From positions 620,001 through 684,000 of the forward strand of contig NZ_JAOTQN010000001.1 of assembly GCF_025641885.1 (NCBI RefSeq): DNA of 64,000 nt. Reading direction: 5' to 3'. The DNA is from Pyrobaculum sp. 3827-6 (GTDB lineage: Archaea > Thermoproteota > Thermoprotei > Thermoproteales > Thermoproteaceae). Positions 41,237-59,044 of this stretch are shown here, one piece after another. The notes beneath the pieces were generated by a model. The model had not been told where the DNA came from. It made no database searches and saw nothing but the letters and a program-made list of their open reading frames with translations. The first letter of the stretch is position 1, and each line of letters starts with the position of its first letter. A program made the position numbers and the translations under genes.

Positions 41237-41256
41237 GGAGAGGGGGGACGCGCCGT

Positions 41257-41870: not shown

Positions 41871-41890
41871 AGCCCTGTGTACAGCCTAGG

Positions 41891-43436: not shown

Positions 43437-44137
43437 GCCGTCTTTATACGAGCCAGTATCTGGTCAACAGCCTTTCTATTATCCCTGTCTCTCAACACGT
43501 CGTTCGCCACCGCCTCTCCGTAGTACTCCCCAATCGCCACTCTCTTTACGGCGATGGGCGTGATTTTCCTCGCCATCTTCAACTCGTCTTTTTCCAAGAG
43601 GTTCACGGCAACGAGAGAGGAGTAGGCCATGTAGCGGCGGTACTGCTCAGCCTTGACGTCGGATATACGCGCGATAAGCCGGCGGTCGGCAATAAAGATG
43701 TTGTAGACGCCCATCTGCTGTAGCCTAGACAGCACCTCCAGCCTCAGCGCCGCCGTACTGTCTATTAAGACCGTGTCCACAGGTATGCGCAACTTAGTCA
43801 CGAACTTAGGCAGATGTTCAACCCACTCAAGCATAGCCTCGACGAAGTCCCCCACCACGTCCTCACCCATCCTTTGATAGATCTCATAAGCCTCGTACCC
43901 CGGCATCACGTAGAGCATAGGCGACACTCTGTGGACGTAGGGAAGCTCCCCTCTGAGAAACGGCGCCAGCCACCCCGCCTTCCTCGGCACTCTAAACAGC
44001 TGAGATAAATCGCTCTTTTCCCAATCCATGTCTACCAGCAGAGACAGCCCCTTCTTCACCCCAAGCACCGTGGCTATGGTCGTCTTCCCCACCCCGCCGT
44101 CTAGAGAAGAGACCAGCACCACCTTCACCTGCCTCAT
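43433..44137 (-). CDS. ParA/MinD-like ATPase
   Basis: 234 residues. P-loop SLDGGVGKTTIATVLG (residues 11-26) has the ParA/MinD layout, but the signature lysine of KGGxGKT is Asp13. SLLVDMDWEKSDLS (residues 30-43) is the A' motif and VDTVLIDSTAALRL the Walker B. Such proteins position large machines; Tad pilus loci in bacteria have a ParA-like protein (TadZ/CpaE). It sits directly before the ATPase gene with an overlap, which points to localisation or control of this filament rather than chromosome partition. Confidence 0.82.
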   Translation of the reverse strand: MRQVKVVLVSSLDGGVGKTTIATVLGVKKGLSLLVDMDWEKSDLSQLFRVPRKAGWLAPFLRGELPYVHRVSPMLYVMPGYEAYEIYQRMGEDVVGDFVEAMLEWVEHLPKFVTKLRIPVDTVLIDSTAALRLEVLSRLQQMGVYNIFIADRRLIARISDVKAEQYRRYMAYSSLVAVNLLEKDELKMARKITPIAVKRVAIGEYYGEAVANDVLRDRDNRKAVDQILARIKTA

Positions 44138-44433
44138 ATCAAAGCCGCGAGTCTCTTGTAGACGTAGTCCACGGCGGCGTATTTCAGAGCGGCGCCGTCC
44201 GCCACAGCCCCGATCTCCTTCTTAAACCTGTTAAGCAGGTTAGCCGCTGTCTTCGCATCCGACAGCTCGGACAGCCTTAGAAGCGACGGCCTAAGCTTCA
44301 CCCCACGCCCCCTTACATTCAGCACGGCAATCCTCGCCGCTATGCACAAATCCCTATAGCTACGGTAAAACCCATCCCCTCTACACAAATCAAGCAAAGC
44401 GTTGAGGAGTCTGTACGTCTTCTCGTCAAACAT
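44134..44433 (-). CDS. Hypothetical protein upstream of the ParA-like gene
   Basis: About 99 residues starting MFDEKTYRLLNALLDLCRGD. Helical and basic, with RDLCIAARIAVLNVRGRGVK and NLLNRFKKEIGAVADGAALK. No known family. A longer frame to 44487 lies in the preceding gene; ATG 44433 overlaps it by 8 bp. Part of the unbroken chain of overlapping genes 45698 to 41901. Confidence 0.5.
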   Translation of the reverse strand: MFDEKTYRLLNALLDLCRGDGFYRSYRDLCIAARIAVLNVRGRGVKLRPSLLRLSELSDAKTAANLLNRFKKEIGAVADGAALKYAAVDYVYKRLAALI

Positions 44434-45022
44434 AGCACTCGCGCAACTTCTCGGGGTTCTCCACAACCCGCCTAACCACCTCGACATATGAGGGATCTCT
44501 CTCCATCAAATCCGTAAGAACCTTCACAAGCTCGTTTATTAGCCACCCCCCGCCGCCGCGGCCCTCCCCACGCGCCGCCTCCGACCTGCGGCCAGCTCTC
44601 TCTACAAGCCTCTGAATGACGACATGGAGCTCTTCGCAGACCAGGGGATACTCGCCGCACAGCCCCGCGAAGCGGATAACCTCAGGATTGAGCTGAAACA
44701 GCGGCAGTTTGTCCACCGAGACGGCGAACTCAACCAGCGTCTTAACCGCATGCCGGACTCTCGACATGGGAAACCGCCTCGTAAAAGTCGCGACGGGGCA
44801 TCTGGCAACCCCCGGCTTAACCCGTCCATACACCACGTTCAACGTGTCGAAAACCGCGGCGACGTACACCACCACAGGACCCTCGCCGCACTTCTCGTCC
44901 ACATCCGCCGGATCCGCCATGTACTCCTCCTTGAGGAGGTAGACTCCCCTCGGCGGCTGCCCCCAGTACATCTCCCACCCAGCGCCCAGCAACGCCTTCA
45001 CACGGCTTATAGACACCTCCAT
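44426..45022 (-). CDS. Hypothetical protein of the pilus-like locus
   Basis: 198 residues. The N-terminal two thirds are mixed alpha/beta (MEVSISRVKALLGAGWEM; VVVYVAAVFDTLNVVYGRVK) with four cysteines (EKCGEG, ARCPVA, GLCGEYPLVCEE). A Gly/Arg-rich linker (ARGEGRGGGGW) leads to a C-terminal helical region. No known family. It follows the gene at 45027 after 4 bp. Confidence 0.5.
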   Translation of the reverse strand: MEVSISRVKALLGAGWEMYWGQPPRGVYLLKEEYMADPADVDEKCGEGPVVVYVAAVFDTLNVVYGRVKPGVARCPVATFTRRFPMSRVRHAVKTLVEFAVSVDKLPLFQLNPEVIRFAGLCGEYPLVCEELHVVIQRLVERAGRRSEAARGEGRGGGGWLINELVKVLTDLMERDPSYVEVVRRVVENPEKLRECYV

Positions 45023-45026
45023 AACG

Positions 45027-45698
45027 CTACGACGATTCGTACAAAACCTCGGCGGCGCCGTGTTTTGTACGGCCCGCCGTTTCGTACACGTCGCGGTACC
45101 TCCCGAGGGCCATGTCTATATGAGCCATCCGGCCCGTGTCCAGCCAGTACAGCCACTCCGCCAGGTGTCTATTGCGCCGGTCCCTCCACCGGCTCCACGC
45201 AACCCATGAGTAGCCCCGCGCCCACGCCAGCTCCCTAAGCCAGAGCGGGAAGGCGCTTCTAAACACCTCAAGCGGCCTGCTCCTCGGCACGGCCGAAACC
45301 CACTTGAAGAGAGAAGGCGCCCTACTCCGCCATATGTACCTCCGCCCCCTGTCGCTCAACACAGTCAGCAGGTAGCAGGGAGAGACTTGCAACCGCACGT
45401 CCACCACCCCGCCGTCTGCAACCAGCGGCCACCGCGCCCTCCATCGGGGCTCCACATAGCCACCCTCTACATAGAGCATCCACTCCTCTCTGTAGCGCCC
45501 CGCCACCCGAAGCCCCCTTAGGCCGAGCTGAAACGCCTCGGGATTCTCCGCCACGTAGCCCACAAGCCCATCCACGTCCACAGCCACGTGTCTAAACCTG
45601 CTAAGGAGCTCCTTCACCAAGTCCTCCCCCAGCAACTCCACCCAGTCCCCCGGGTCGTAGTGGAGGAATATACAGGGGTCGACCCGTGGTCTATACAC
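45027..45698 (-). CDS. Hypothetical protein, first gene of the pilus-like operon
   Basis: 223 residues, rich in Arg and Trp (WLRELAWARGYSWVAWSRWRD). The N-terminal half has an alpha/beta look (VAVDVDGLVGYVAENPEAFQ). No membrane helix. No known family. The GTG at 45698 is preceded by GTTTAAAAGG at about 26 bp, an ordinary TATA box, in contrast to the special element used further down the locus. The chain of genes to 41901 is probably one transcript from here. Confidence 0.55.
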   Translation of the reverse strand: MYRPRVDPCIFLHYDPGDWVELLGEDLVKELLSRFRHVAVDVDGLVGYVAENPEAFQLGLRGLRVAGRYREEWMLYVEGGYVEPRWRARWPLVADGGVVDVRLQVSPCYLLTVLSDRGRRYIWRSRAPSLFKWVSAVPRSRPLEVFRSAFPLWLRELAWARGYSWVAWSRWRDRRNRHLAEWLYWLDTGRMAHIDMALGRYRDVYETAGRTKHGAAEVLYESS

Positions 45699-45735
45699 GT
45701 AGTTACACCCCCCTTTTAAACACCTTAAAGAGACG

Positions 45736-45839
45736 TGGTGGACCGGCCGGGATTCGAACCCTATCCCAAGCCCCCTCGCGGAGGCTTGACGGGACCGCCC
45801 GCGTGCAAGGCGGGCATCCTTCCGCTAGACTACCGGCCC
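45736..45839 (-). tRNA. tRNA-Ala(TGC) with a T-arm intron; CCA encoded
   Basis: Acceptor stem GGGCCGG/CCGGTCC includes the G3-U70 pair that marks tRNA-Ala. The anticodon loop is CTTGCAC, anticodon TGC. D loop has GG at 18-19. The T arm is broken by an insert of about 29 nt between CCCG and GG; removing it restores stem CCGGG/CCCGG with loop TTCGAAT. The insert folds into a bulge-helix-bulge: central helix TCCC/GGGA, bulges GTC and TAG, and inner stem AAGCCTCC with a GCGA loop. Splice points could shift by one base. TTAAAAACG lies upstream. Confidence 0.93.
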
Positions 45840-45875
45840 TTTACATATATAGTACGCGTTTTTAAGCTTTTCCCA

Positions 45876-46451
45876 CTACCACCAATACGGCAGAGACGCA
45901 GGCGGGGGGGCGGGCCTCACCACGACGAATTCTCTGGAGGTCTTGACGCCGTGTCTGCACGTCCTCATGACTTCAAACAACACGTTGCCCAGGTGATTTA
46001 GTACTAGGATGGCCTCTCTGCCCTCCTCCACGGCGGCCATCCTCCTCTCGGCCCACCTCACCCAAATCCTGGCGTTGTTAACAGCCGCACAGCACCTGTC
46101 TAGGCAGTACAGCCACCCCAGGGGGGAGTCGGGCAGGAGAGGTAGGATACACCTCAGAGCCTTATTAAGCATATGTAGACTCCTACCGTAGTATTTATCG
46201 TCACCCGTGGCTAGGTAGAGACCTAGATTAAACAAGGACCAGTAGGCCCTACTCAGACATTTTCCCTGTCTTCTACACACCACAGCCGCGTAGTTTATGT
46301 ACCCCAGGGCGGCCTCCAAGGCGCCGAATACCTTGATGATATTCGACGCCTTCGAGACGCACATCTGGCGCCCCAGCCACAGAACCTCTGTGTCGCCTAG
46401 ATCACCCGGGCAGGTCCCCGCCAATACGCAAGGCTTGCTTAATACGGGCAC
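45876..46451 (-). CDS. Hypothetical cysteine-containing helical protein
   Basis: 191 residues with about nine cysteines (SKPCVLAGTCPG, CRRQGKCLSRAY, LYCLDRCCAAVN, TCRHG), helical throughout the middle (GALEAALGYINYAAVVCRRQ). No family recognised. An ordinary TATA-like GATTTTAAGT lies about 26 bp before ATG 46451. It is located between the tRNA-Ala gene and the integrated element and may be part of a lineage-specific family. Confidence 0.5.
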   Translation of the reverse strand: MPVLSKPCVLAGTCPGDLGDTEVLWLGRQMCVSKASNIIKVFGALEAALGYINYAAVVCRRQGKCLSRAYWSLFNLGLYLATGDDKYYGRSLHMLNKALRCILPLLPDSPLGWLYCLDRCCAAVNNARIWVRWAERRMAAVEEGREAILVLNHLGNVLFEVMRTCRHGVKTSREFVVVRPAPPPASLPYWW

Positions 46452-46466
46452 TAGAAGTTATGTACC

Positions 46467-46685
46467 CTACTTAAAATCTACACTTGTAACAACTACCGAA
46501 GGCGAGGTCTTTATTATCCTCCACACAGCGTCGTATACGCCTTCCACTAGCGGTATAGTAATCCTGTTACCCTCCACATGTATCTCTACCCACCTACTCA
46601 TAGCTCTTAGCTCACCCACAATACGCCGGTACAACGAATCAACCATATAGGGAGTCGATACGGTTATGGATACCCTCCCCGCCAT
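46467..46685 (-). CDS. Small protein, possible KEOPS subunit Pcc1
   Basis: 72 residues: SITVSTPYMVDSLYRRIVGE, then WVEIHVEGNRITIPLVEGVYDA and a C-terminal helix-strand end. The strand-helix-strand-strand-helix order and the VEGNRITI segment resemble Pcc1, the dimerising subunit of KEOPS, but Pcc1 sequences are weakly conserved. Kae1 is present at 23001-24011, so a Pcc1 is expected somewhere in the genome. A TTAATAAATTT box is about 26 bp upstream of ATG 46685. Confidence 0.42.
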   Translation of the reverse strand: MAGRVSITVSTPYMVDSLYRRIVGELRAMSRWVEIHVEGNRITIPLVEGVYDAVWRIIKTSPSVVVTSVDFK

Positions 46686-46777
46686 ATATAGAGAGCAGGG
46701 AGAGGTTAATAAATTTTTACCACATTACATACTCGGCGTGTGAAAAACCTTAAAAAACACCAGCATTAAAAGAGACG

Positions 46778-46853
46778 AGCCCGGTCGTCTAGCGGCCAAG
46801 GATGCGGGGCTTTGGACCCCGTGGCCCGGGTTCGAATCCCGGCCGGGCTACCA
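46778..46853 (+). tRNA. tRNA-Gln(TTG), intronless, CCA encoded, reconstructed by the integrated element
   Basis: Acceptor AGCCCGG/CCGGGCT, anticodon stem CGGGG/CCCCG with loop CTTTGGA (anticodon TTG), T stem CGGG.. with loop TTCGAAT, then A and CCA. It is complete and has no intron. The part from 46810 on is repeated at 54938-55007, so this gene is the left attachment site. Its 5' half is chromosomal and its 3' half most likely comes from the element. CTTAAAAAAC lies about 26 bp upstream. Confidence 0.93.
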
Positions 46854-47026
46854 ACCCCCGCCTTAGTTTGGCCCTATAATCCACCGCTTTTAACTAAACG
46901 TCGTGCTCTACTTAAATAAACTCAAACATTTCTAAAAGGCGTGTTCAAATATTCTCAAATGTAAAACGTGGCGTTAGTGGCCGCCTTTGAAAACACCCTC
47001 CCCCTCCCCTTGGAAATTTTCGGTGT

Positions 47027-47101
47027 TTGCACAAACCGTTGCACCTACGGCGCTACGCCGATCTGCACATCTAATGCACCTGTTTTGCACAATGTTTGCA
47101 C
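47027..47101 (+). repeat. Phased array of six TGCAC sites (left array)
   Basis: GCAC occurs at 47029, 47041, 47065, 47076, 47087 and 47098, mostly as TTGCAC. Spacings are 12, 24, 11, 11 and 11 bp, so a seventh site near 47053 is degenerate. The sites lie on one face of the helix, like iterons or arm-type recombinase sites. A matching array in the opposite orientation is at 53529-53590. Confidence 0.7.
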
Positions 47102-47229
47102 ACACGAAACCTCTCAATATAAATATACAGGAAGCTATTGAAAAACACCAATAAGAGTGCTGTTGGTGTATACATATATATCAAGTGAAACACCTCCGAT
47201 TGGTGTCTATCCAAAATCTCTCTACGTGA

Positions 47230-47331
47230 ATGGACGCTATAGATGATCCGCAGCTACCCTCGCAACTTGTACAGATAGTGCGTGACGATATACAACTAAT
47301 GAACGAACCTCAGAAATGCAATAAAAAGTAA
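47230..47331 (+). CDS. Possible 33-residue protein
   Basis: Frame MDAIDDPQLPSQLVQIVRDD and onward to a Lys-rich end. The composition is plausible for a small soluble protein, but I see no TATA box at the expected place, and no relative is known to me. It may not be a gene. Confidence 0.22.
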   Translation: MDAIDDPQLPSQLVQIVRDDIQLMNEPQKCNKK

Positions 47332-47393
47332 AGAGGGACAGATAGGCGAGATGTATGTGGCTGTGGGGGTGGGGGTGGAAAAAGGGGGGTTGT

Positions 47394-47546
47394 TTAGATT
47401 GGGCTCTTCTCTATTATCCTAGCTTCGATATACTCGAGCAACTCTATGACAAGTCTGCAGGCCTGCGCAGCGTCTCGGTTGCATTCGTGCTGTATTTTCA
47501 TCAACGCGCCTAGCACCTCCAACACATCTATCTCTCTTTTCGACAT
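47394..47546 (-). CDS. Small helical protein of the element (50 residues)
   Basis: MSKREIDVLEVLGALMKIQH followed by ECNRDAAQACRLVIELLEYI, one continuous amphipathic helix pattern with two cysteines. The box TTTTAAATC lies about 26 bp upstream of the ATG, the normal leaderless layout in this genome, which is the main support for it being real. It reads towards the phased array at the left end. No family recognised; small DNA-binding or regulatory proteins are common in such elements. Confidence 0.55.
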   Translation of the reverse strand: MSKREIDVLEVLGALMKIQHECNRDAAQACRLVIELLEYIEARIIEKSPI

Positions 47547-47699
47547 GTAGATCTGGCGTTGCGCGATTTAAAACAGACGTGCACCACACCTAGGATTTGG
47601 AATTTGGTTCATGTTCTAGTTCATGTTCATAAAACAAAGTCTCGAACATAGCTCCACCTGCAAAGAAATTGTTTTTATTTCCTGCATGCAGTGTAGGTA

Positions 47700-48101
47700 A
47701 TGCAGGTGGCTGGAGGGGAGGACGTTGTGGAGGTGGATCTGGAAGAGGTGGCCTCGAGAGAGCTTTCGGAGCTGTGTGACGTGCCGTGGGTGTACGGCTT
47801 GGCTTGGTACCACGCAGTTATGCGTAGCGGGAGGCACCTCCACGTAGCTGTCTATCTAAAGAAAATAAGGACAAAGAGACTCCTCCGCCTACTTGAATTC
47901 GTGGATTACCTAGTGAGGCGTTGCGAGAAGCCTCTCGACGAGGAGGCCATAAAGGCCGTGGGCAGGAGTTTCGGCATTAGGATACGTAGTAGAGATAAGT
48001 GGAGCGATATGGACAGGTTTGAGGCGAGCGACTATGAGCTACTTAAAGAGACTCTCGACGTCATTAAAGAAATTCGGAGAAGCCGCTGTAAGGGGGATTA
48101 G
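47700..48101 (+). CDS. Hypothetical protein of the element
   Basis: 133 residues. Acidic N terminus (EDVVEVDLEEVASRELSELC), then a basic middle (YLKKIRTKRLLRLLEFVDYL) and a charged C terminus. No family recognised. GTTTTTATTT about 26 bp upstream of ATG 47700 acts as the promoter. It is divergent from the 50-residue gene and precedes the palindrome cluster. Confidence 0.55.
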   Translation: MQVAGGEDVVEVDLEEVASRELSELCDVPWVYGLAWYHAVMRSGRHLHVAVYLKKIRTKRLLRLLEFVDYLVRRCEKPLDEEAIKAVGRSFGIRIRSRDKWSDMDRFEASDYELLKETLDVIKEIRRSRCKGD

Positions 48102-48403
48102 ACACCTGCAAAACCCAGCTTTTTCCGCATCTCCCACCGGAGGGGCTGACAGCACACGCCGTTTTTCTGCAAACCATTTTGCAAAAACCCGCCGGGCTCT
48201 GTGCCCCCAAACTTGGACATGGGTCCATTGTTTACTAGGCACGGCGCGCGCCGAGTTTTTGGAAAACGTTTTCCAAAAATACAGCGTACGCCGTTTTTTT
48301 GCAAAACAATTTGCAAAAATCTGCCGGAAGCTATTCTTTGTTCATATTCACGAATATGTAATACACCTATAACATTTATAAACGAATGCAAATGGTGCTT
48401 AAC
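48102..48403. other. Palindrome-rich intergenic region, candidate replication origin or operator region
   Basis: 302 bp without a gene. Three related A/T-rich inverted repeats (48161-48186, 48256-48279, 48296-48319), each bordered by CGCCG/GCCGG-like sequence. CATTTATAAAC at about 48374 is the TATA box of the next gene. The dense, related palindromes make this the best candidate for the element's origin or for binding sites of its regulator. Confidence 0.5.
48161..48319. repeat. Cluster of three related inverted repeats
   Basis: Copy 1: CTGCAAA/TTTGCA core at 48161-48186. Copy 2: a perfect 24-bp palindrome at 48256-48279 with half-site TTTTTGGAAAAC. Copy 3 at 48296-48319: arms TTTTTGCAAA and TTTGCAAAAA around ACAA. 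A fourth related copy is at 53267-53289. Confidence 0.75.
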
Positions 48404-48790
48404 ATGGCCAGGAATGTCAGTCCCCACCCGGAAGGCTTACCGCAACAAGCGGCGCTTGAATCGACTGTGTCATCACCCTATATCAATAACATGAGTATGT
48501 TAAAAAACATTAGCTGTTATGCAGAGGTTGGCACGTGGAGTAGCTCGATATACCTGCATGTTCCATTGACGTGCCTTACCGAGGCTCTTGGGGTCAATGA
48601 CGAGGTTACGCTCGCTTTGCTTATGCCATCGGGATACGTTATCCTGGTCAGTGGAAAGGTGTACAAGCTTACGAAACGCGCTGCATTGATTTACATAACT
48701 AGGCGTGAGTATCGGAAGCTAGTAGATGAACTGAGGCGTCTAGGCCACGTGTTGATTCTAGGCGTGAGAAAACAAAAAACCACGACGTAG
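48404..48790 (+). CDS. Hypothetical protein, possible AbrB-like fold
   Basis: 128 residues from ATG 48404; CATTTATAAAC lies 26 bp upstream. The middle, IYLHVPLTCLTEALGVNDEV followed by TLALLMPSGYVILVSG, resembles the swapped-hairpin AbrB/SpoVT layout (strand, helix with short turn, two strands). If so, it could be a small transcription regulator, perhaps acting on the palindromes just upstream. This is an inference from pattern only. It ends 3 bp before the helicase-like gene. Confidence 0.5.
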   Translation: MARNVSPHPEGLPQQAALESTVSSPYINNMSMLKNISCYAEVGTWSSSIYLHVPLTCLTEALGVNDEVTLALLMPSGYVILVSGKVYKLTKRAALIYITRREYRKLVDELRRLGHVLILGVRKQKTTT

Positions 48791-48793
48791 TAC

Positions 48794-50887
48794 ATGTCTA
48801 CGGCCAGCCCCCCTCCACCTGCTAATTCAGTCCAAAGAGGCGTAGGGGTTAATAAAGATCTCTGCGGCGTAAGATGTGAAAGGCTCGATGGACCTGCGTT
48901 GAAGTTGCGTTGCGTTAGTGGAGGCGCTGAGATGGTAATTGAGAGAGTTTACCACGGCTCCAATCGATGGCTTGTAGAGGCGGGTGGAGACGCGCACTAC
49001 TTCGCCGATATATGGACTAACACGTTTCTAGAATATGCGGCGCGCCTTGGTTTTGACAAGAAGTGTATTATCGACGAACTGAGACGTGTACTTGCCCCGC
49101 AAAATCGCCGCGCAACTTCGCTTACGCTTGTGATATTTAACCAGGTACGTGATTATCTGCCGACCATAGGCCCTGTCCTCACAGCGATCTATATGGATGA
49201 CATGGGCAAGCCCCGCCTTGTAATGTTAATCAGCCAAAACGGAATACTTCACAAAAAAGACCCATCCGAACCTTTGTACGACGATATTCACGACGTAATT
49301 TATAGGCCTAGGGAACTAGTTGAGAGAATCGAAAAGGTAATTGACTTGTTTCCCAACTATCCGCTACTAAACATATTCTACAATACGCGGCCGTCCATAC
49401 CACAATTAATTAAAGAGGTGAGAGAGGTGATAAAGAACCATGTAACTTTGCCCGGTGATAAGTATTACACGGCACTCGCAGCATACATCGTGGCCGCGCA
49501 CTTCTTTCCGGTGTTTCGGTACTTTACGGTCCTCCGCATAGGAAAACCAGGTTACAACGCGGGAGGCACAACCACGCTAAAGGTCGTGTGTTCACTACTG
49601 CCAGGTGGCCGGTTGCTTGTGGATCCCAGTGACGCTAGTTACTACGTTCTCACGGATATGTTTCGCCTATCGCTGTGCATCGACGAGGTGAAAACGGAGT
49701 GGGGAAGAGACAAGGTGAGGAAATTATCTTTTTACATCGACGCTGGCTTTGATCGCGATTATGATATCCCCAGGATGATGAATGGAGGCAAGGACCCTAC
49801 ATTCTTCAGATTGTACGGCCCACGTGTTATTGTCGATCCACAATCCCTCGTAACTAGCTACTCAAACGTGCGGAGGCAGTTAGTGATACCAGTGCTACCT
49901 GCGAGAGACAGAAGGGAGGTGCCCTCTGTCGAGAAGTACCGTGAGCTGTATTTTGAGCTTTGGCATAAGCTACACGCGGCCTATCTGCTTTATGCCGACG
50001 ACGTCAAGGAGAGGTACGATCGCATTGCTGAACTTTACCCGGAGCTGGATGGCGCGGCTCTGCAGGCATACGGCGCCGTTTTGACCATTGCAAGTTATGA
50101 CGAGGAAATCCGTGAGGCTGTGTTAAGCGTTGTAAAGGAGTCCATTGCGACGACCGAGGCCATAAAGCTAGAGTCAGACCCCACAAAAATTGTTCTACGT
50201 CAAGTCTATGCGAAACTCTATGATGTCGCTGAGAGGATTTGCCGCTATGAGGTTGACGTGGATGATCCTCTGAAGACACGTATCGACTGGAGGTTAGAAG
50301 ACTTGCGTAGGGAGTTGAGAGAGAGCCTCACCGAGCTTTACCAGATCGATGTCAAAACCGGAGAGGGCGAGGCCGGGGGGCAGAAGCGGATATGGCAGAG
50401 GTTGAGTGATGAAAGTCTTGACGCGGTTCTAGGACGCCAACCCTTCGCCGCCTTGCTGAAACAGTACCTAAGCGACTATATCGTGGCCGACAAGCGCCGC
50501 TACCTGCATTTGGTGTTCGAAAACGCTGAGGAGATTTGGAGGGGTCTCGAAAAGCTGGCCAGCGCCCTCGGCATTGAATTCACGCCTCCATGCACGCTTA
50601 GCTCACTAATACACAGGAACGAGCTTTGGCGGTGCGCAACTGATATGGCCGACGCGACCCATGAGAATCCTAACGCCGTTTTCACCGAGTTACAGCAGAA
50701 CCCGATGCGTAGAGCACAGATATGTGGCGCGCGGACAGGTGAGGCGGAACCGCAACGACAAGTTCAGCAGACGTCAACCCAGCAACAGGATGCGCATCAG
50801 CAGATGCCGCCGCGGTTGGCTGTCGGTAGGTGTCCAGAGGGCTGGGTCTATGAAGAGAACACAAGACGCTGTCTGAGGCCATGGTGA
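48794..50887 (+). CDS. Helicase-like replication protein with degenerate P-loop
   Basis: 697 residues. In the middle, TVLRIGKPGYNAGGTTTLKV (residues 245-264) stands where a Walker A would be, but the invariant Lys is Gly258. LSLCIDEVK (293-300) fits Walker B, and RLYGPRVIVDP resembles the motif that follows in phage and plasmid helicases next to primases. The N-terminal 220 residues have no recognised domain. The C terminus has a Gln-rich stretch (QQTSTQQQDAHQQ) and a small Cys module. Position before the primase gene supports a replication role; ATP hydrolysis is doubtful. Confidence 0.5.
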   Translation: MSTASPPPPANSVQRGVGVNKDLCGVRCERLDGPALKLRCVSGGAEMVIERVYHGSNRWLVEAGGDAHYFADIWTNTFLEYAARLGFDKKCIIDELRRVLAPQNRRATSLTLVIFNQVRDYLPTIGPVLTAIYMDDMGKPRLVMLISQNGILHKKDPSEPLYDDIHDVIYRPRELVERIEKVIDLFPNYPLLNIFYNTRPSIPQLIKEVREVIKNHVTLPGDKYYTALAAYIVAAHFFPVFRYFTVLRIGKPGYNAGGTTTLKVVCSLLPGGRLLVDPSDASYYVLTDMFRLSLCIDEVKTEWGRDKVRKLSFYIDAGFDRDYDIPRMMNGGKDPTFFRLYGPRVIVDPQSLVTSYSNVRRQLVIPVLPARDRREVPSVEKYRELYFELWHKLHAAYLLYADDVKERYDRIAELYPELDGAALQAYGAVLTIASYDEEIREAVLSVVKESIATTEAIKLESDPTKIVLRQVYAKLYDVAERICRYEVDVDDPLKTRIDWRLEDLRRELRESLTELYQIDVKTGEGEAGGQKRIWQRLSDESLDAVLGRQPFAALLKQYLSDYIVADKRRYLHLVFENAEEIWRGLEKLASALGIEFTPPCTLSSLIHRNELWRCATDMADATHENPNAVFTELQQNPMRRAQICGARTGEAEPQRQVQQTSTQQQDAHQQMPPRLAVGRCPEGWVYEENTRRCLRPW

Positions 50888-51303
50888 TAGATCTAGAGAA
50901 GTTCAAGCTTTGGCTTAGACGCTACGCGTGCCACGTCACAGACAACGCGCGGATATTTTCGGCGGGTTTTCTCCGAGTGGCTGTGGACTACGCCTATATT
51001 AGCGGTATTGAGTATAACACACCGGAATTCCAGCGATTCACGAGGGAGCTCTGGGAGGCTGTGCGGAGGCTCGAGGAAGAGGGCTACCTGGCATTGGTAG
51101 GCGCCACATGTTCACCGAAGTACTTGGAAAAGGTGGAGGGTTTTGTGGGAGCGGAGTGCGGCATGCCTCCCGGCGATCCGTACTCGGCAATAGTTGTAAT
51201 TCCGAGGGAGGTGTTGAGGTGCGAGGAGCTTCAAGAGCCGAGGGGAGGCGGGAGGAGAGTCGCAAGACGTGTGGGGAAGACAAGGCTCACGGAATACTTG
51301 TGA
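50881..51303 (+). CDS. Hypothetical protein between helicase-like and primase genes
   Basis: 140 residues. Helical, with LWLRRYACHVTDNARIFSAG and ELWEAVRRLEEEGYLALVGA, which may be a winged-helix-like end of a DNA-binding domain. A basic tail (RGGGRRVARRVGKTRL) follows. It overlaps the genes on both sides (7 and 4 bp), so it belongs to the replication operon 48794-52520. Confidence 0.5.
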   Translation: MVIDLEKFKLWLRRYACHVTDNARIFSAGFLRVAVDYAYISGIEYNTPEFQRFTRELWEAVRRLEEEGYLALVGATCSPKYLEKVEGFVGAECGMPPGDPYSAIVVIPREVLRCEELQEPRGGGRRVARRVGKTRLTEYL

Positions 51304-52520
51304 GGACTGTGGGCCACCTCGCGGAGTTCTTCAACAGGTATGTCAGAGGGCACTTGGAGGAGGAGTTTGTAGAGTCGTACGCCGTGGCGCCGTGTAGGGA
51401 GTTGGGCATGCCGCAGAGGATTGGCCACGTGTGTACTGGTAGTGAGTTGTTAAACCACGTTAAGAAGCACAACCTAGACAGAGAACCGCGGCCTGTGTTT
51501 GCCTCGATGGTAGCCACAGACGGCACGTATTACCGAGCCCTTGACCGCGTATGTATCGACGTGGACATAGGCCCAGAGGAGGAGAAGCTGAAGATGTTTC
51601 TAAGAGAGCTAAAGCCGCGGCTTCCAAAGTTCAAGGACTATATATGGCTCGAGTTCACGGGATATAAGGGGTACAGGATCTGCATCTTTCTGCAAGAGCT
51701 CGTAGACGTGGGAGACGCCGTGACGCCGATCATTCTACGTGGCTACCAGAAATGGCTTTCTGAAAAGCTACGCGTGCCGCAGGATCCCCAAACTGTCGGC
51801 GATTTGAGGAGACTCTTCAGAGTGCCGTTTACAATCAACGAAAAGAGCGGCAAGGTGGCCGTGCCCATCCACCCCGAGACTCTTGAGAAGCTAGGCCCCT
51901 CCGAGGCTCTCGAGATCTTTCTCGACAGAAAACCCCTGTGGCTTGGCTACAGAGTGTTGGCATACGCCGAGGATGTCGTGGTGGATAAGAGGCCACACGT
52001 CATGAGGCGTGTCAAACGTAGCGCTCCCGCAGATGTGGAGGAGGTGTGTCTCCACAACGAGGCACTGGGCCGGGTTTGCGCACCCACATCGCTTGTGGGA
52101 CACGGGTGGCTTAGATACCTGGTGGACAATGGGGTGTATCTCCAAGACGCGAGGCACACCGCTATATGGACCGCGCTGGGCTACGCCGTTGCTAGCGGCA
52201 TCGTCTCGCTGGAGGAGGCCGAGGCCTGGCTGAGGGCCGCGCTCGAGAGGTACCCAGACCCGGAGGGGGAGCCCCCCGAGAGCTATCTCAAGATGCTACG
52301 CTACTTTGCGCAGTACAGACAGAGGCGCGCGGTGCCCCCACCCACGTGGAGGACGTTGGCCACGTTCAGGACCAGGTGGGGCGCCGAGGTCGCGCCGTGG
52401 ACTAAACACCTAGCTGTAAACGTCCTCTACGCCTTGCACAAGGCTGGCGTGGTTAAGATAGAGAAGCCGGAGGTTTTGGAGGAGCTGTGGCGCAGTCAAG
52501 CTGGCGGCATACCTGCTTGA
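51300..52520 (+). CDS. Archaeo-eukaryotic primase (AEP/PrimPol type)
   Basis: About 406 residues. RVCIDVDIG holds the paired catalytic acids (DxD), LEFTGYKGYRICIF stands at the sxH-type nucleotide site (His replaced by Arg or shifted), and LRRLFRVPFTINEKSGKVAVP fits the conserved R.P...N.K.G...P segment of plasmid primase-polymerases. The C-terminal half is helical and of unknown role. This enzyme starts DNA synthesis on the element. GTG 51300 overlaps the preceding stop (GTGA). A longer frame from 51108 is unlikely. Confidence 0.75.
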   Translation: MRTVGHLAEFFNRYVRGHLEEEFVESYAVAPCRELGMPQRIGHVCTGSELLNHVKKHNLDREPRPVFASMVATDGTYYRALDRVCIDVDIGPEEEKLKMFLRELKPRLPKFKDYIWLEFTGYKGYRICIFLQELVDVGDAVTPIILRGYQKWLSEKLRVPQDPQTVGDLRRLFRVPFTINEKSGKVAVPIHPETLEKLGPSEALEIFLDRKPLWLGYRVLAYAEDVVVDKRPHVMRRVKRSAPADVEEVCLHNEALGRVCAPTSLVGHGWLRYLVDNGVYLQDARHTAIWTALGYAVASGIVSLEEAEAWLRAALERYPDPEGEPPESYLKMLRYFAQYRQRRAVPPPTWRTLATFRTRWGAEVAPWTKHLAVNVLYALHKAGVVKIEKPEVLEELWRSQAGGIPA

Positions 52521-52685
52521 CGAATCTCACGGCGTCTCGCTCACCATCTAGTTCAGCCCCAGATCGCCTTTTTCTCCAACGGCACACCAGCCCAGTTTTC
52601 AGTTTGGGGGATTCGTTCAAGGGCTTGACAGCGGTGCCTCTGCCCACTCCGTTGAATTTTTAACGCCGCAAAGTATGAATTGTTC

Positions 52686-53249
52686 ATGGCCCGGGGAACT
52701 CCCATTAACCAGAGGAGGCTAAGCCAAGTCATGTTGCAACTCAAAGATTTCAAAGACGCCATGCAGAGGCTGTGGGAGGAGGCCTACCTCTATCCTACGT
52801 GGCCAAGGACGCTGACTTACGTGCTAGGTGCCACCGGGAGGAGGCTGGGGGAGGCCCTCGCCCTCGCGACCACCGACATCGACTTCGAGGCGAGGAGAAT
52901 CACATGGAGGATTGAGAAGAAGAGGGGGGAGTTTTATCTCACCCTGCCAGCCTCCGACAGATTGCTAAAGCTGTTGCGGAGGTACATCGCCCTGGGCGGC
53001 GTCTCCCACAAGTTGTTTGACGTGTCAAAGCAGAGGGCCAGTTACAAGGTGAAGAAGACGCTCGAGGAGCTGGGCCTCCGAGGATGGACAGCACACGATC
53101 TCCGCCATGCGTGGATACTCCTGGCTCTTCTGGAGACAAAATCGCTGGAGCTCGTTAGGCGCTGGGTAGCCCACAGCGACTACGAACTACTCGCTTACTA
53201 CTCACGCACTGTGGGGCTTGAGATGGAGAGACCCCTGGTAGAGCTCTAA
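52686..53249 (+). CDS. Compact tyrosine recombinase
   Basis: 187 residues, only a catalytic domain. Arg in ATGRRLGEALAL, beta-hairpin KKRGEFYLTL, HDLRHAW (HxxR), His in VAHSDYELL and the nucleophile Tyr in the YYSR segment are all present. The N-terminal core-binding domain is absent. It may resolve multimers of the element or invert a segment; it is unlike the larger integrase at 53660. The box TTTTTAAC lies 26 bp before ATG 52686, so it has its own promoter. Confidence 0.8.
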   Translation: MARGTPINQRRLSQVMLQLKDFKDAMQRLWEEAYLYPTWPRTLTYVLGATGRRLGEALALATTDIDFEARRITWRIEKKRGEFYLTLPASDRLLKLLRRYIALGGVSHKLFDVSKQRASYKVKKTLEELGLRGWTAHDLRHAWILLALLETKSLELVRRWVAHSDYELLAYYSRTVGLEMERPLVEL

Positions 53250-53266
53250 GTCGGCAATTTAGCGGA

Positions 53267-53289
53267 TTTCTGCAAAACATTTTGCAAAA
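53267..53289. repeat. Fourth copy of the TGCAAA inverted repeat
   Basis: Reads TTTCTGCAAAACATTTTGC and on; arms TGCAAA/TTTGCA with an ACAT-type spacer and a flank CGCCG, like the copies at 48161-48319. It lies just after the compact recombinase. Confidence 0.65.
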
Positions 53290-53528
53290 CTGCGCCGCGC
53301 GGCGTGGGCATGAGCAATGCTACGGTTGTGCCGGCAGGTTGTCCCCTTTGCGGCGCGGTTTCCCTATGTGGCGGATCTCAGAAAACGTCTGTAGTGAGAA
53401 GTCTTGTAACAAAATCTATGTAGTGAACGCGTGTCAAGACTATCGCTTGACGTATATCAACCCCCTACGGTGCTTCTCTTGAAATCTATCGAGGGCACTA
53501 TATTTATTTACGGCCGGTGTATTTACAA

Positions 53529-53590
53529 GTGCGCATTCGGTGCTTGACAGGTGCACGCTTAGTGCAACCTCCGTGCAACGACGTGTGCAT
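53529..53590 (-). repeat. Phased array of six GTGC sites (right array)
   Basis: GTGC starts at 53529, 53540, 53551, 53562, 53573 and 53585: spacings 11, 11, 11, 11, 12. It is the reverse complement of the left array (47027-47101). Three copies extend to GTGCAA or GTGCAC. Confidence 0.75.
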
Positions 53591-53659
53591 CCGCTGAGGT
53601 TGTTTTGGGGGGGTATATATGGGGGTGGTTTTCAAGGCGAGTGGAAAGTCGGTGTCTTG

Positions 53660-54880
53660 TTATGAAAAAAGCCTTGGCGTATATTTTTCAAAAACAGTAC
53701 GTAGCCTCCTCTCATAATCCTGTATGTAGTGTTCAATCGTTACCGCCAAGCCGCCCGGCAGGGATCTGCCTTGGAGAAGAGCGATATCTGCGACATCTAC
53801 ACCGCGGTCCAGTAGCCACTGAGCGTGGAACTTACGGAGGAGTCTTGGCTCTAGCCAAGGCAAGCCAGCCCGCTCCCTTGCTTCTTTCAGCCATTCGTAT
53901 AGAGTGTGTTCTTTGCAGGGGAATAACTTGTCGCCACGCGCATGATGGGCCTCCCTCCATGGCAGGTATACCTCTTTGAGGTATCTGACTGCACCCTCCG
54001 TGAGAAATATGAGGGGCTGCTTCTTGGGTCCATCTGTCTCCCCTAGTAGTAGCCTCCTCTTGTCTAGCTGTAGGCCGGTTATGGCGGCGCGGTGTAGGTG
54101 GTCAAATCTGACACCTGTCTCTGCCATTATTCCCCACACCGCGGCTGCGCATGGCGATATTTTGTGAGCCTCCTCCCAGACGCGTCTAACCTCCTCGATA
54201 GTGGGGAGGCGGAAGCCGTTTTTGTTCTTCTTCACCGGCGGCGTCTTGACCGCGTCGTATAGTATAGGAGCTATCTGTGGCTCCCTCGCCTTGACCACGA
54301 GATCTATGAAGCGCTTCAAGGCGATTATAGTCTCACGGCGTATTTTATAGCTATCTGAGTATGTATAGACCGATTGCAAGGACTCTGGAGTTAGCGACCA
54401 CCCCACGTGTTGAAGAAACCTAACCAAGTAACGTATGTACCTGTTTACAGTGTCGCCGGTAAGGTTCTCTGCTACCAGTTTCTGTCGAAACAGCTCGACG
54501 TCGTTAGCAGTTGCCGTGTAGGCGATCTCAATCTTCAGACCTGGGAGTAACTGCGCAAGCCGCGTGGTGACATATTCCCTCAACGACTTGTCTCGGAGAG
54601 CCCTAGCCAGGGTTTCCAGCGCAATATCTATCTCAAGCTGAGTGACAGGTGGCGCCGGCAAACACTTCTCGACGGTCAAAGGATCAGTCTCGTGCATCTT
54701 CTGCAACTTCTCCGGAGTAGGCGTGGATCTCCCGCTGAGCCACTGAACGACGGCGGCCGGGGTGACCCCAGCCATCCTGGCAATGTCTGAGACCGAAAGC
54801 CCTAAAGTCTCCCTCAAGCACCTCACCACGCCGATCTTTTGTTCGTCGCTCAGTTTTGCCCAGTACGGGTTTACAAACAT
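53660..54880 (-). CDS. Integrase, tyrosine recombinase with N-terminal HTH
   Basis: 406 residues. An N-terminal helix-turn-helix (LSVSDIARMAGVTPAAVVQW) precedes a core-binding domain and the catalytic domain with Arg in AETGVRFDHLHRA, LRKFHAQWL, and the Tyr nucleophile in TIEHYIQDY. The gene lies next to the right attachment site with its start about 60 bp away, as expected for the enzyme that inserted the element at the tRNA-Gln gene. It is intact, so excision is conceivable. ACTTAAAAGC lies 26 bp before the ATG. Confidence 0.85.
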   Translation of the reverse strand: MFVNPYWAKLSDEQKIGVVRCLRETLGLSVSDIARMAGVTPAAVVQWLSGRSTPTPEKLQKMHETDPLTVEKCLPAPPVTQLEIDIALETLARALRDKSLREYVTTRLAQLLPGLKIEIAYTATANDVELFRQKLVAENLTGDTVNRYIRYLVRFLQHVGWSLTPESLQSVYTYSDSYKIRRETIIALKRFIDLVVKAREPQIAPILYDAVKTPPVKKNKNGFRLPTIEEVRRVWEEAHKISPCAAAVWGIMAETGVRFDHLHRAAITGLQLDKRRLLLGETDGPKKQPLIFLTEGAVRYLKEVYLPWREAHHARGDKLFPCKEHTLYEWLKEARERAGLPWLEPRLLRKFHAQWLLDRGVDVADIALLQGRSLPGGLAVTIEHYIQDYERRLRTVFEKYTPRLFS

Positions 54881-54937
54881 ATGAGAATATTTGAATCCGC
54901 TTTTAAGTTTTTCCCCAATATTCTAAACACTACGGTT

Positions 54938-55007
54938 CTTTGGACCCCGTGGCCCGTCGAGCCCCTCAGGGGCTCGGGCTAGGGTTCGAATCCCGGCCGG
55001 GCTACCA
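54938..55007 (+). pseudogene. tRNA-Gln 3' half with intron (right attachment site)
   Basis: Begins at the anticodon loop (CTTTGGA) and runs to CCA, with no 5' half. A 26-nt insert at 54957-54982 lies in the T arm between CCCG and GG, at the same place as in tRNA-Ala(TGC). It folds as bulge-helix-bulge: helix GCCC/GGGC, bulges GTC and TAG, inner stem GAGCCCC/GGGGCTC. This is the displaced chromosomal half of the original tRNA-Gln. Confidence 0.9.
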
Positions 55008-55245
55008 TTCGCATCTTACCGAGGCATGGGTTCTACAAAAATGTACTTCTTCTAGCGATATGTGTACTTTCATCAATTTATTACGTATGGATAAATTGGA
55101 GATTTCAAATGACTTATTAATATTAGTAAAAATATACTCAATTTAATAATATTTAAAAAATATGTTTTATCAATATTAGAGATTTTAAATTCTTCATATT
55201 ATATACTTTAAATTAACTTTATATACCCGAAGAGAATATGAGCTT

Positions 55246-55674
55246 ATGAAAGCCGAAATTATAGCCAGGAAACCGCCTATTACCGCAACTCCCGATATGC
55301 GTATTAAAGACGTCGCCAAGATTCTGGTAGAGAAAAGAGTCGGCCTAGTGGTGATTGTAGACAAGGCACAGCCCGACGTCGTGATTGGCGTGGTTTCTGA
55401 ACGCGACATCGTGAGGGCAGTGGCTAACAACGTAGATCTTAACCAGCCAGTTAAGGAGATAATGACCTCCCCGGTGATAACTGTTGAGGGGGAGGAGCCT
55501 ATTTGGAACGTGGCTAAGATCATGCGTGAACACAATATTAGGCACGTAGTTGTTACAAACAAAGGCAGGCTTTACGGTGTGATATCTATAAGAGACATGG
55601 TAGGAGAAGAGTCCGTACTAAAGAGTCTTGTGGAATACGGCACACAGGAGGAACATAGACCAAGCGCTGATTAA
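55246..55674 (+). CDS. CBS-domain protein
   Basis: 142 residues, two CBS repeats (ATPDMRIKDVAKILVEKRVG and VEGEEPIWNVAKIMREHNIR). Such Bateman modules bind adenosine ligands such as AMP or SAM and control other proteins. No effector domain is fused. ATG 55246 has ACTTTATATAC 26 bp upstream; the 238 bp before it are very AT-rich and hold nothing else I recognise. The universal stress protein gene follows after 29 bp. Confidence 0.9.
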   Translation: MKAEIIARKPPITATPDMRIKDVAKILVEKRVGLVVIVDKAQPDVVIGVVSERDIVRAVANNVDLNQPVKEIMTSPVITVEGEEPIWNVAKIMREHNIRHVVVTNKGRLYGVISIRDMVGEESVLKSLVEYGTQEEHRPSAD

Positions 55675-55703
55675 GCTTTAATATATCAACAAATTAGTTT
55701 TCT

Positions 55704-56117
55704 ATGGAGGTAATAGTGGTTGGCTACGACGGCTCTCCACAAGCAAAAAAGGCGCTGGAAAAGGCGAGGAGTATAGCTGAGAAATTCGGCTCCAAGATCT
55801 ACGTCGTACACGTCATAGACACAGCAGTCTTGTCTCTGTCAGATATGTTCTCCTCACCGGCGGTGCTCGCCAGTCTTAAAGAAAAGGCCGAGCAACTAAT
55901 AAAGGAGGCTCTGGCGGCTCTGGGCCCCCGCGCCGAGGGGAAGGTCGTCGAGGGGGACCCGGCGCACGAGATTGTCAAGTTTGCAAGAGAGGTTAACGCG
56001 TCGTTGATTATACTCGGGGCAAGGGGGCTGTCGACTATCAGGAGGATACTGATGGGAAGCGTCTCCTCTAGAGTGGTGCAGGAGTCCCCCATAGACGTAT
56101 TGATTGTAAAGGGCTAG
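55704..56117 (+). CDS. Universal stress protein, UspA family
   Basis: 137 residues. VIVVGYDGSPQAKKALEKAR at the N terminus, and the ATP-binding loop GARGLSTIRRILMGSVSSRVV with G-2x-G-9x-GS spacing. UspA proteins bind ATP and act in stress survival; the precise job is unknown. Pairing with a CBS protein fits an energy-sensing unit. Overlaps by 4 bp the end of the convergent MFS gene. Confidence 0.9.
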   Translation: MEVIVVGYDGSPQAKKALEKARSIAEKFGSKIYVVHVIDTAVLSLSDMFSSPAVLASLKEKAEQLIKEALAALGPRAEGKVVEGDPAHEIVKFAREVNASLIILGARGLSTIRRILMGSVSSRVVQESPIDVLIVKG

Positions 56118-57310
56118 CGGGCTTGAAGCGCCTCTTTAACCAAAGGAGCCGCGGCTATGAGAAGCACTGCGCCGGAGAAAATAAACGCGTAGCGGGGCGA
56201 GGCCGAGTATAGATACGCCACTGTCAAGCCGCCCGCGATCGACCCTAGGTATTCCAAGGCGAGGGTGGTCCCCATAATCTTCCCCCTGTTTTCCGGAGTT
56301 ATGTAGTCACCCACCAGGGCCCTCCTTATAGACATGGCCACCTCGCCGCCTATGCCGACGATTATAGCCGCGGTGACCAGCGCCACGACGTTAGACCACA
56401 CCCCAATCATGAAGTACCCCACGGCCATTAGCATAAGTCCCGAGAACAGCGCCGTGACGCGCGGCGCCTTGTCGATAACCGGCATCAAGACGATGCCGAA
56501 GAATATGCCAACTGCGGTGGTGGCGCTCTGAATCACCCCCCAAGAAGTGTTGTCAATACCTATGACGCCCGTGGCGTAGAGCACGCCGAAGGTCTGCAGA
56601 GCTATGCCGGCCAGCGACGTCAACAACCCCAAGAGAGTTACGTAGGCCACGAAGCGGGGTATTGAAAAGAGGCCGCGCCAAAATATGTAAGACTGCGCCA
56701 CCTCCCTCACCAGCGCCTCTCTATCCAACGGCTTGACTTGTATTGTCTCCTGCAGAGCCTTCATGCGGAGCACTGCCACCGACGTGGAGATGACGCCGGA
56801 AATTATGAAAGAGAGCCGCATCCCCATCAAACCCATGTGGTCAAGCAGATAGCCCCCCACCGGCGGCAGAAAGAGCCAGGGGATTTGGGGTAGCACCGCC
56901 GTGAGCATCATCCCCCCTCCCCTCTTCTCCGGCGGTAGCGAGTCCAGCAGTATAGCAGTTAAGGCGGGTTGGTAGAAGTGGAGCGCCCAGTCCACCACGT
57001 AGACAGCCGCGAACTGCCTCCAGTCGTTTACAACGGCGTAGAGAAACTGCACGAGCGCAATACCCCACGTGCCAATAACAATAGACCGCTTCCTACCAAT
57101 CACGTCGGTTAAAACGCCCCCCGGCAGAATCGTGAGCAACACAGCGAGAGAGCCCAGAGAGCGCACCACGCCTATCTCAATATCCGAGGCCCCCAGCAGG
57201 TGCAGATACTTCGACAGGTAGGGAAAAGTCAGCGAGCCAGATATGGCGAATAAAAACCAGGAGATTATCATAGCGCCGACGTTTCCCCTAAGCCAGTACG
57301 AGAGACCCAC
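56114..57310 (-). CDS. Major facilitator superfamily transporter
   Basis: About 398 residues, twelve membrane helices. A GVLTDVIGRKRSIVIG segment is the A-motif loop between helices 2 and 3 (GxLaDrxGrkr), and a second half ends with ENRGKIMGTTLALEYLGSIA. No substrate can be named. An upstream frame to 57523 is a low-complexity Arg-rich stretch antisense to the neighbour; GTG 57310 lies 26 bp after the box TTTATAAAG, so I use it. Confidence 0.85.
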   Translation of the reverse strand: MGLSYWLRGNVGAMIISWFLFAISGSLTFPYLSKYLHLLGASDIEIGVVRSLGSLAVLLTILPGGVLTDVIGRKRSIVIGTWGIALVQFLYAVVNDWRQFAAVYVVDWALHFYQPALTAILLDSLPPEKRGGGMMLTAVLPQIPWLFLPPVGGYLLDHMGLMGMRLSFIISGVISTSVAVLRMKALQETIQVKPLDREALVREVAQSYIFWRGLFSIPRFVAYVTLLGLLTSLAGIALQTFGVLYATGVIGIDNTSWGVIQSATTAVGIFFGIVLMPVIDKAPRVTALFSGLMLMAVGYFMIGVWSNVVALVTAAIIVGIGGEVAMSIRRALVGDYITPENRGKIMGTTLALEYLGSIAGGLTVAYLYSASPRYAFIFSGAVLLIAAAPLVKEALQAR

Positions 57311-57402
57311 GTCGCCGCGGACACTACACCACTTTATAAACAATCCCCCCGCGCCCCGGCGGCATAGCAACAAATTTAAAAGGGGGGGATAACCCACCCG
57401 CG

Positions 57403-58062
57403 ATGAATAACTGGCTGGTATTCGCCATCGCCTTCGCCGCCACCGCGGCGGTGCTCCTCGCCACCGTGGCCGCCAACGTATACCCCAGAGAGCCCGTGCA
57501 CAAGCCCTACTGGGACAACCCACAGGCTAGGCAGAAGATCATTACCGACGCCTCCTCCATAGGCGTGCTGGCCTCCAGAGGGCAACAGGGAGTTGTGGTG
57601 CTGGGATACAGAGATCAGCTAAATGCCACAAACAGGGCGGAGCTCCTCACAGCTATCAAAGAAGTCCTCAACGCGGCCCGGGGCTACACGGTGTACATAG
57701 CCCCCTGGGCCACAGACAACGCCACAAAGGCCTACCTCTCCCTGCTCTACGACGGCAGACTCCCGCTGGAGGACTACCTAAAAGGCGTGGTGATAAACTC
57801 CACAGCCATATCTCCCCGGGTGGAGCTGGCCCTAGCGCTTGCGGGGACAATTGCGCAGACATACGGCATGTATCAGCCTCTAGGCGGGGGTCCACAGGCA
57901 CAGATACCCCCCATATACGTCGCCGTGTTTAGAAACGACACCTCCTACGTGGTTTACGAACCCTTCACCCTAGGCCGCGACCGCACCTACACAGACTGGC
58001 TCCAGTGGGTCAAGACAGCCTTCGAAAACCTAAGACAAGGACAGGGCAAGGTTACTCCATAG
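57403..58062 (+). CDS. Membrane-anchored hypothetical protein
   Basis: 219 residues. N-terminal helix WLVFAIAFAATAAVLLATVA, then an outer domain with a VVVLGYRDQLNATNRAELLT region, sequons (NAT, NST, NDT) and Tyr-rich strands (YVAVFRNDTSYVVYEPF). No cysteine and no known family. AAATTTAAAAGG gives the promoter. Its end overlaps the convergent TauE-type gene by 33 bp. Confidence 0.6.
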   Translation: MNNWLVFAIAFAATAAVLLATVAANVYPREPVHKPYWDNPQARQKIITDASSIGVLASRGQQGVVVLGYRDQLNATNRAELLTAIKEVLNAARGYTVYIAPWATDNATKAYLSLLYDGRLPLEDYLKGVVINSTAISPRVELALALAGTIAQTYGMYQPLGGGPQAQIPPIYVAVFRNDTSYVVYEPFTLGRDRTYTDWLQWVKTAFENLRQGQGKVTP

Positions 58063-58761
58063 GTAGTACACACCTACTGCAAACACATAGCCCACGAACA
58101 GCCTCTTTACAGAGCTGGACCCCAGCCGAGGCATCACGTACCTACTCGCGAGGAAAGAGCCGGCGAAGCTACCCAACGCTATAAACACAGCCAGCCCCAG
58201 CTCCAGCACGCCAAGCCACGCATATGTGAGTGTCGAGGCTAGGACGGTGGGGAAAATAACGCCCATGCTCATCGCCGCCGCGATCTTAGCCTCCATACCG
58301 GACACCAGGATGAGAGCAGGGACGAAAATAGTCCCCCCACCCACGCCGAATAGGGAGGAGACAAATCCCCCCACGAACACAAGCATGTAACCCAGCCACG
58401 GCGCCGGCCTACTAGGCCTCTTATTAAGCAACAAAACCACTCCGATAATTATTAGGTAGACTCCATAAACTAGCTTAACCCAATTCCCCGAAAACTTCAC
58501 AGATATGAAGGCGCTGGCTACCGCAGCCACGACGGAAAACGCCATGTACCTCAACAACAACGACGTGTCTATACTCCGCCTGTAGTTATAGATAGAGGTG
58601 AGAGACGTCACCACTATAGAAAACAGACTAGCCGCTACCGCGGTTTGGAACTCCACACCAGACAGATTCAACATAGGCACGATAACGACCCCACCCCCCA
58701 CGCCTATGAGAGGGCCTAGAAAACCCCCCAGGAATCCAGCCAGTACGGCGATCCAATACAT
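58030..58761 (-). CDS. TauE/SafE family anion exporter
   Basis: About 243 residues, eight membrane helices in two halves. Each half starts with a glycine-rich turn: GFLGPLIGVGGGVVIVPML and GFVSSLFGVGGGTIFVPAL, the repeat signature of TauE/SafE. Members export sulfite, sulfoacetate or related anions. A longer frame to 58830 exists, but ATG 58761 has ACTTTAATA 26 bp upstream. Confidence 0.85.
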   Translation of the reverse strand: MYWIAVLAGFLGGFLGPLIGVGGGVVIVPMLNLSGVEFQTAVAASLFSIVVTSLTSIYNYRRSIDTSLLLRYMAFSVVAAVASAFISVKFSGNWVKLVYGVYLIIIGVVLLLNKRPSRPAPWLGYMLVFVGGFVSSLFGVGGGTIFVPALILVSGMEAKIAAAMSMGVIFPTVLASTLTYAWLGVLELGLAVFIALGSFAGSFLASRYVMPRLGSSSVKRLFVGYVFAVGVYYLWSNLALSLS

Positions 58762-58867
58762 TAAACCCCTGTACCTACACATATTAAAGTGATGACACCC
58801 CAATAGCCAGACAATTGAAGAAACTCGCATGGGCTGAAAAAATATAAACTAGAGCCATGCGATCTAC

Positions 58868-59044
58868 ATGGCACGTCGGAAGAAGTACGAAGGCCTCAAC
58901 CCATTCGTCGCCGCAGGCCTCATTAAATTCAGCGAGGAAGGCGAATTGGAGAAAATTAAGCTCACCCCCAGAGCCGCCGTAGTCATATCAATAGCCATAG
59001 TAGCGGCCTTAATCGCGATAAACGTAATACTCCCGCCTCCCTAA
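58868..59044 (+). CDS. secG: Preprotein translocase Sec61-beta subunit
   Basis: 58 residues: MARRKKYEGLNPFVAAGLIK, then KIKLTPRAAVVISIAIVAAL, one C-terminal membrane helix. This is the archaeal Sec61-beta protein, a small subunit of the SecYE translocon. AAATATAAAC lies 26 bp upstream. Confidence 0.93.
   Translation: MARRKKYEGLNPFVAAGLIKFSEEGELEKIKLTPRAAVVISIAIVAALIAINVILPPP

Follow-up and report, generated by a model that had tools for sequence, protein, structure and literature searches.

An integrated element in a Pyrobaculum genome has very probably replaced, by site-specific integration, the intron-bearing 3′ half of the host tRNA-Gln(TTG) gene with its own intronless half. The element lies in the 64,000-nt window that was analysed (the whole stretch of DNA, C1:620001-684000), which is part of a 1.41-Mb contig of the 2.30-Mb draft genome (13 contigs; G000). 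The complete tRNA gene stands at its left end, and the old, intron-bearing half sits ~8 kb away at its right end. With a complete tRNA gene, a displaced tRNA fragment and a shared core, an intact recombinase, and an empty site in a relative, the insertion has the sequence features of a tRNA-targeting archaeal tyrosine-integrase element (Table 1).

The tRNA gene, its displaced half, and the element

Both ARAGORN and Rfam (RF00005, 59.4 bits) recognize the complete gene as a tRNA-Gln(TTG) with an encoded CCA and no intron. No other tRNA-Gln(TTG) copy is present in the genome, whose Rfam census comprises 45 tRNA genes and the displaced tRNA-Ser half of a second element (element B). A 19-bp core, CTTTGGACCCCGTGGCCCG, is present once within this gene and once at the right end, where it precedes a 26-nt insert, TCGAGCCCCTCAGGGGCTCGGGCTAG, and a 25-nt 3′ exon, GGTTCGAATCCCGGCCGGGCTACCA, which is identical to that of the complete gene and likewise ends in an encoded CCA. 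The displaced copy (54938-55007) is truncated, and its first base is the 5′ base of the anticodon loop. A sequence-only reading of this DNA had described an intronless left gene, a 26-nt bulge-helix-bulge (BHB) intron in the T arm of the displaced half, and a shared 19-bp segment before that intron; all three descriptions hold, the intron to the base and the segment with its start now placed at the anticodon loop. The reconstituted gene presumably works without splicing, and we take the intronless gene to be the functional one because its host upstream flank is intact and it is the sole copy.

By its predicted structure, the insert after position 51 is an archaeal BHB tRNA intron, with a 4-bp central helix (GGCC/GGCU), a symmetric 3-nt bulge at each splice site (CG^U and AG^G), and an intron hairpin of 8–9 bp. 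Free-energy folding of the whole precursor recovers the hairpin and the adjoining helix and does not recover the exact register. Taken at face value, the minimum-energy fold points to a different helix register; we preferred the canonical BHB register because it cuts symmetrically and yields the correct mature tRNA sequence. In a search of 45 genomes from the order, the pattern of this intron was found at only four places, namely the tRNA-Gln(TTG) and tRNA-Gln(CTG) genes of a relative (G029), the tRNA-Gln(CTG) gene of G000, and the displaced half, while a reversed pattern searched as a control gave no matches; the match is therefore not due to chance.

Translocatable tRNA introns have been described for Thermoproteales. 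A member of the displaced intron's family, likewise in the T arm and matching it at the central BHB helix, is found in a tRNA-Ala gene of the window (45736-45839, minus strand). Its central helix reads GUCC/GGAU, which amounts to a compensatory change from G-C to U-A, and its bulges are those of the displaced intron; this sibling fits the picture of translocatable introns.

The predicted excised circle is about 8128 bp (~8.1 kb), with CTACGGTT + CTTTGGACCCCGTGGCCCG + GGTTCGAATCCC as the predicted attP junction. Its integrase matches PF00589 and PF16795 just above the cut-off, a PHROG integrase at 8.5e-20, and XerA structures by profile. The true start of the primase-like open reading frame (ORF) is probably further in than listed, because its homologue aligns from residue 71. 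The sister elements that were compared contain no homologue of the 189-aa second recombinase. A 42-bp motif (46884-46924) lies close to the left end, within the element, with an 83% identical copy at the same place in element B (C1:734634-734675, beside tRNA-Ser(GCT)); it is a candidate integrase arm site or promoter. Neither the core, with or without intron, nor a primase relative was found in viral contigs as a sign of a free element or attP. As for the donor of the intronless half, the sequence just past the CCA matches no other genome compared, except for a weak 33-bp match.

Table 1 Features of the integrated element, its attachment sites, and the sister elements. Coordinates are window positions unless a contig (C1) or locus (L) is named.
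Feature	Coordinates	Strand	Remarks
Reconstituted intronless tRNA-Gln(TTG), attL	46778..46853	+	Sole tRNA-Gln(TTG) of the genome
Host-derived 5′ part of the tRNA gene	46778..46809	+	Runs into host left flank as in G029
att core, 19 bp, anticodon-loop base 32 to base 51	46810..46828	+	Putative site of crossover
Element-derived intronless 3′ exon	46829..46853	+	Identity to G029 ends at 46828, where the G029 intron starts
Interior of integrated plasmid-like element	46854..54937		Absent from G029, flanks contiguous there
697-aa ORF	48794..50887	+	54% to sister element B gene; 25% over 424 aa to plasmid pXZ1 gene
140-aa ORF	50881..51303	+	Kept in sister element B, 68%
Primase-like protein	51108..52520	+	Weak PF01896 match
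Second tyrosine recombinase, catalytic domain only, 189 aa	52680..53249	+	PF00589, E=1.8e-13
Tyrosine recombinase (integrase), 406 aa, N-terminal HTH_3, intact	53660..54880	-	Pfam/PHROGs, family alignment
att core, second copy (attR)	54938..54956	+	Sequence repeat
T-arm (51/52) BHB intron, 26 nt, in displaced host half	54957..54982	+	G029 orthologous intron
Displaced host 3′ exon with CCA	54983..55007	+	Runs into host right flank
Sister element B (own genome), tRNA-Ser(GCT)	C1 ~726.6-734.8 kb (L079 4568-12782)		Displaced half at C1:726583-726602 and nearby
Two sister elements (Thermoproteaceae MAG), tRNA-Ser(GCT) and tRNA-Ser(CGA)			
Sister element (WP30, G033), tRNA-Glu(CTC)	L082 5519-8054		2.4-kb remnant, integrase intact
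Sister element (G040, another genus of the family), tRNA-Gln(TTG)			Same core start, intronless half

The empty site and the history of the intron

The closest relative among the genomes compared, G029, has the locus without the element, between flanks that are 92–95% identical. In G029, the segments that match the left flank (39784-46828, 92%) and the right flank (54938-59098, 95%) lie next to each other and overlap by exactly the 19-bp core. When the window flanks were joined (without base 54957 at the seam), identity to G029 was 92% across the junction. At the same T-arm site, the tRNA-Gln(TTG) gene of G029 is interrupted by a 27-nt intron, TCGAGCCCCTTATGGGGCTCGGGCTAG, in agreement with the earlier prediction of an intron of about 26 nt in the empty locus. 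Because this empty site carries the intron, the intron-bearing half at the right end is identified as the host's and the intronless half of the complete gene as the element's, and the proposal that the host gene had an intron and lost it on integration is thereby supported. One difference counts against this reading, in that the loop of the displaced intron is TCA and that of its G029 orthologue is TTAT.

Beyond G029, the syntenic locus of G027 (~71–76% identity) lacks both the element and an intron; its 76-nt tRNA-Gln(TTG) is identical to the reconstituted tRNA, although its 3′ flank is different. According to the sequence-only reading, an intronless gene in element-free relatives, or an intron confined to elements, would speak against a swap. 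The intron is not so confined, as it also occurs in the host tRNA-Gln(CTG) of both G000 and G029. G027 is literally such an intronless relative, but a distant one, whereas the closest relative has the intron, and G027 does not undo the case for a swap, given the intron in the displaced half itself.

In other Pyrobaculum species, tRNA-Gln introns are different or absent, and nearly all species differ. The tRNA-Gln(TTG) genes of G033 (locus L102), G031 (L105), and G030 (L106) have introns unlike the displaced one, located in the D arm and at another T-arm site, or in the D arm and the anticodon stem. Since the introns of this gene differ across species, their turnover must be fast. The 51/52 intron looks like a gain in the lineage of G029 and G000 that was then lost from the G000 gene by integration; the number of changes rests on few genomes, and the intronless, element-free state of G027 implies that gain and loss at this locus were both recent.

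Other histories were weighed against this one. The attP may also have carried the intron, with the reconstituted tRNA losing it after integration through recombination with a cDNA of the spliced tRNA or with another gene. Such a loss would suit a genus in which tRNA-Gln introns come and go so often, but it requires one extra event, the other tRNA-Gln-targeting element (that of G040) has an intronless half, and the genome's own tRNA-Gln(CTG) still has its introns; we consider it very unlikely. It is more improbable still that the host gene was intronless and the displaced half gained its intron after integration by intron transposition. The presence of the same intron in the own tRNA-Gln(CTG) and the intronless gene of G027 fit such a transposition, yet it is contradicted by G029, where the intron occupies the same site in an intact, element-free gene, and the displaced relic, which is unlikely to be transcribed as a tRNA, would be an improbable target. 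The draft state of the genome leaves some room for an assembly artefact, or for a duplication by homologous recombination instead of site-specific integration, but exact junctions, a locus within the 1.41-Mb contig, and an intact integrase that starts 57 bp from the displaced half, in an arrangement shared by the sister elements, make this a hardly credible account. Replacement of the host half by the element's half is thus the reading that we retain.

Sister elements and the position of the crossover

Related integrases were found at five other sites, and the six integrases are ~54–83% identical pairwise. A Pfam search for integrases within the family added only the second recombinase of the tRNA-Gln(TTG) element. 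The integrase is encoded on the minus strand next to the displaced half, and the same holds for the sister elements. In all six elements, whose targets are tRNA-Gln, tRNA-Ser, and tRNA-Glu genes, the att cores start at the anticodon loop or ≤4 nt from it. The tRNA-Gln(TTG) reconstituted in G040 has kept an intron in the D arm, 5′ of the crossover. None of the five sister elements displays an intron swap, and the tRNA-Gln(TTG) case is a single event. A 6-nt insert (ACACGC) in the displaced tRNA-Glu(CTC) half of WP30 was considered as a second swap and rejected; it is probably decay, because no intron is present in the tRNA-Glu genes examined in relatives and a BHB intron needs more than 6 nt.

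In SSV1, the strand exchanges flank the anticodon loop (PMC8371274), and the att boundaries of the tRNA-Gln(TTG) element are consistent with a similar exchange. In the order of events that we infer, with the exact cleavage positions inferred likewise, the integrase would recombine an intronless attP (a tRNA-Gln(TTG) 3′ half from the anticodon loop on) with the intron-bearing host gene. Strand exchange would take place within the shared 19 bp, most likely at the anticodon loop and upstream of the 51/52 intron, so that the host promoter and 5′ half become joined to the intronless 3′ half of the element, while the intron-bearing host half is pushed to the element's far end. Excision would give back the intron-bearing gene. 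The 51/52 position lies 12–13 bp past the anticodon loop, and an intron there would therefore be displaced along with the host 3′ half. The starts of the att cores place the crossover upstream of the T-arm intron, which accordingly did not block integration.

Introns as a shield, precedents, and implications

According to a proposal of Randau and Soell, as recounted in PMC3293823, PMC4390854, and PMC4090602, tRNA introns hinder integration, and the sequence-only reading had seen in the 19-bp segment a way round this shield. The six att pairs call for a qualification of this view: integrases of this family cross over in the anticodon stem-loop, so that an intron in the T arm was probably no obstacle to begin with. 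It is accordingly likely, and compatible with the swap, that integrases of this class were never kept out by a T-arm intron and that the loss of the intron was a neutral by-product. The uniform start of the att cores and the D-arm intron retained in G040 favor this view, as does the report that 10 of 39 thaumarchaeal tRNA insertions are in intron-containing genes (Krupovic et al. 2019, PMC6563490). On the other side, the pTN3 and pT26-2 integrases need more than shared identity to recombine (PMC8371274), and an intron so close to the loop might interfere with additional arm contacts.

The thaumarchaeal elements resemble the present one in their insertion in the 3′ region of an intron-bearing tRNA gene, and the passages of PMC6563490 that deal with these insertions give no exchange of introns between complete gene and displaced half. 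A closer precedent is the tRNA-Thr(GGU) of Caldiarchaeum subterraneum, for which Sugahara et al. 2012 (PMC3293823) proposed intron gain via an intron-bearing attP, noting that direct evidence linking disrupted tRNA genes and mobile element integration was lacking. In both cases an intron difference between attP and attB alters the intron content of the gene. The Caldiarchaeum case, however, is a gain in which the 5′ region was replaced, and its recombinase is only a predicted 813-bp ORF, whereas the Pyrobaculum case is a loss with replacement of the 3′ half, a clear tyrosine recombinase, and, unlike Caldiarchaeum, a syntenic intron-bearing empty site.

The element shares with pNOB8- and SSV-type elements a tyrosine integrase, a tRNA target, and a displaced 3′ half, and with SSV1 a core at the anticodon loop. 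It differs from the SSV type, in which attP lies within the integrase gene and splits it on integration, in that its integrase ORF is intact. It also departs from the pNOB8 layout, in which the reconstituted tRNA has an intact integrase gene as its direct neighbor on the same strand (PMC3293823), since its integrase adjoins the displaced half and is divergent from it. The 697-aa protein is 25% identical over 61% to a protein of plasmid pXZ1 (Sulfolobus islandicus, NC_010365.1); this is the one gene seen to be common to both, and the hosts belong to different orders. No report of tRNA intron loss by integration was found in the open-access literature, subscription papers being outside the search. 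Intron gain by integration has been proposed before and insertions in intron-containing tRNA genes are known; what appears to be new is a clean loss with an empty-site control.

This base-resolved case runs in the direction opposite to the Sugahara model, with a mobile element that left the cell's only tRNA-Gln(TTG) intronless. A noncanonical intron 3′ of the crossover did not stop integration, and the idea that introns guard archaeal tRNA genes therefore needs a positional qualification. More tentatively, integrases that act at the anticodon loop may serve generally to replace alleles of whatever lies 3′ of the loop in archaeal tRNA genes, a possibility to which we give less than even weight. 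If so, introns 5′ of the crossover would stay, those within it would block integration, and those 3′ of it would be swapped. Integrated elements would then repeatedly strip tRNA genes of introns in the T arm and variable loop, or conversely bring such introns in, and this would be part of the explanation for the rapid turnover of noncanonical tRNA introns in Thermoproteales.
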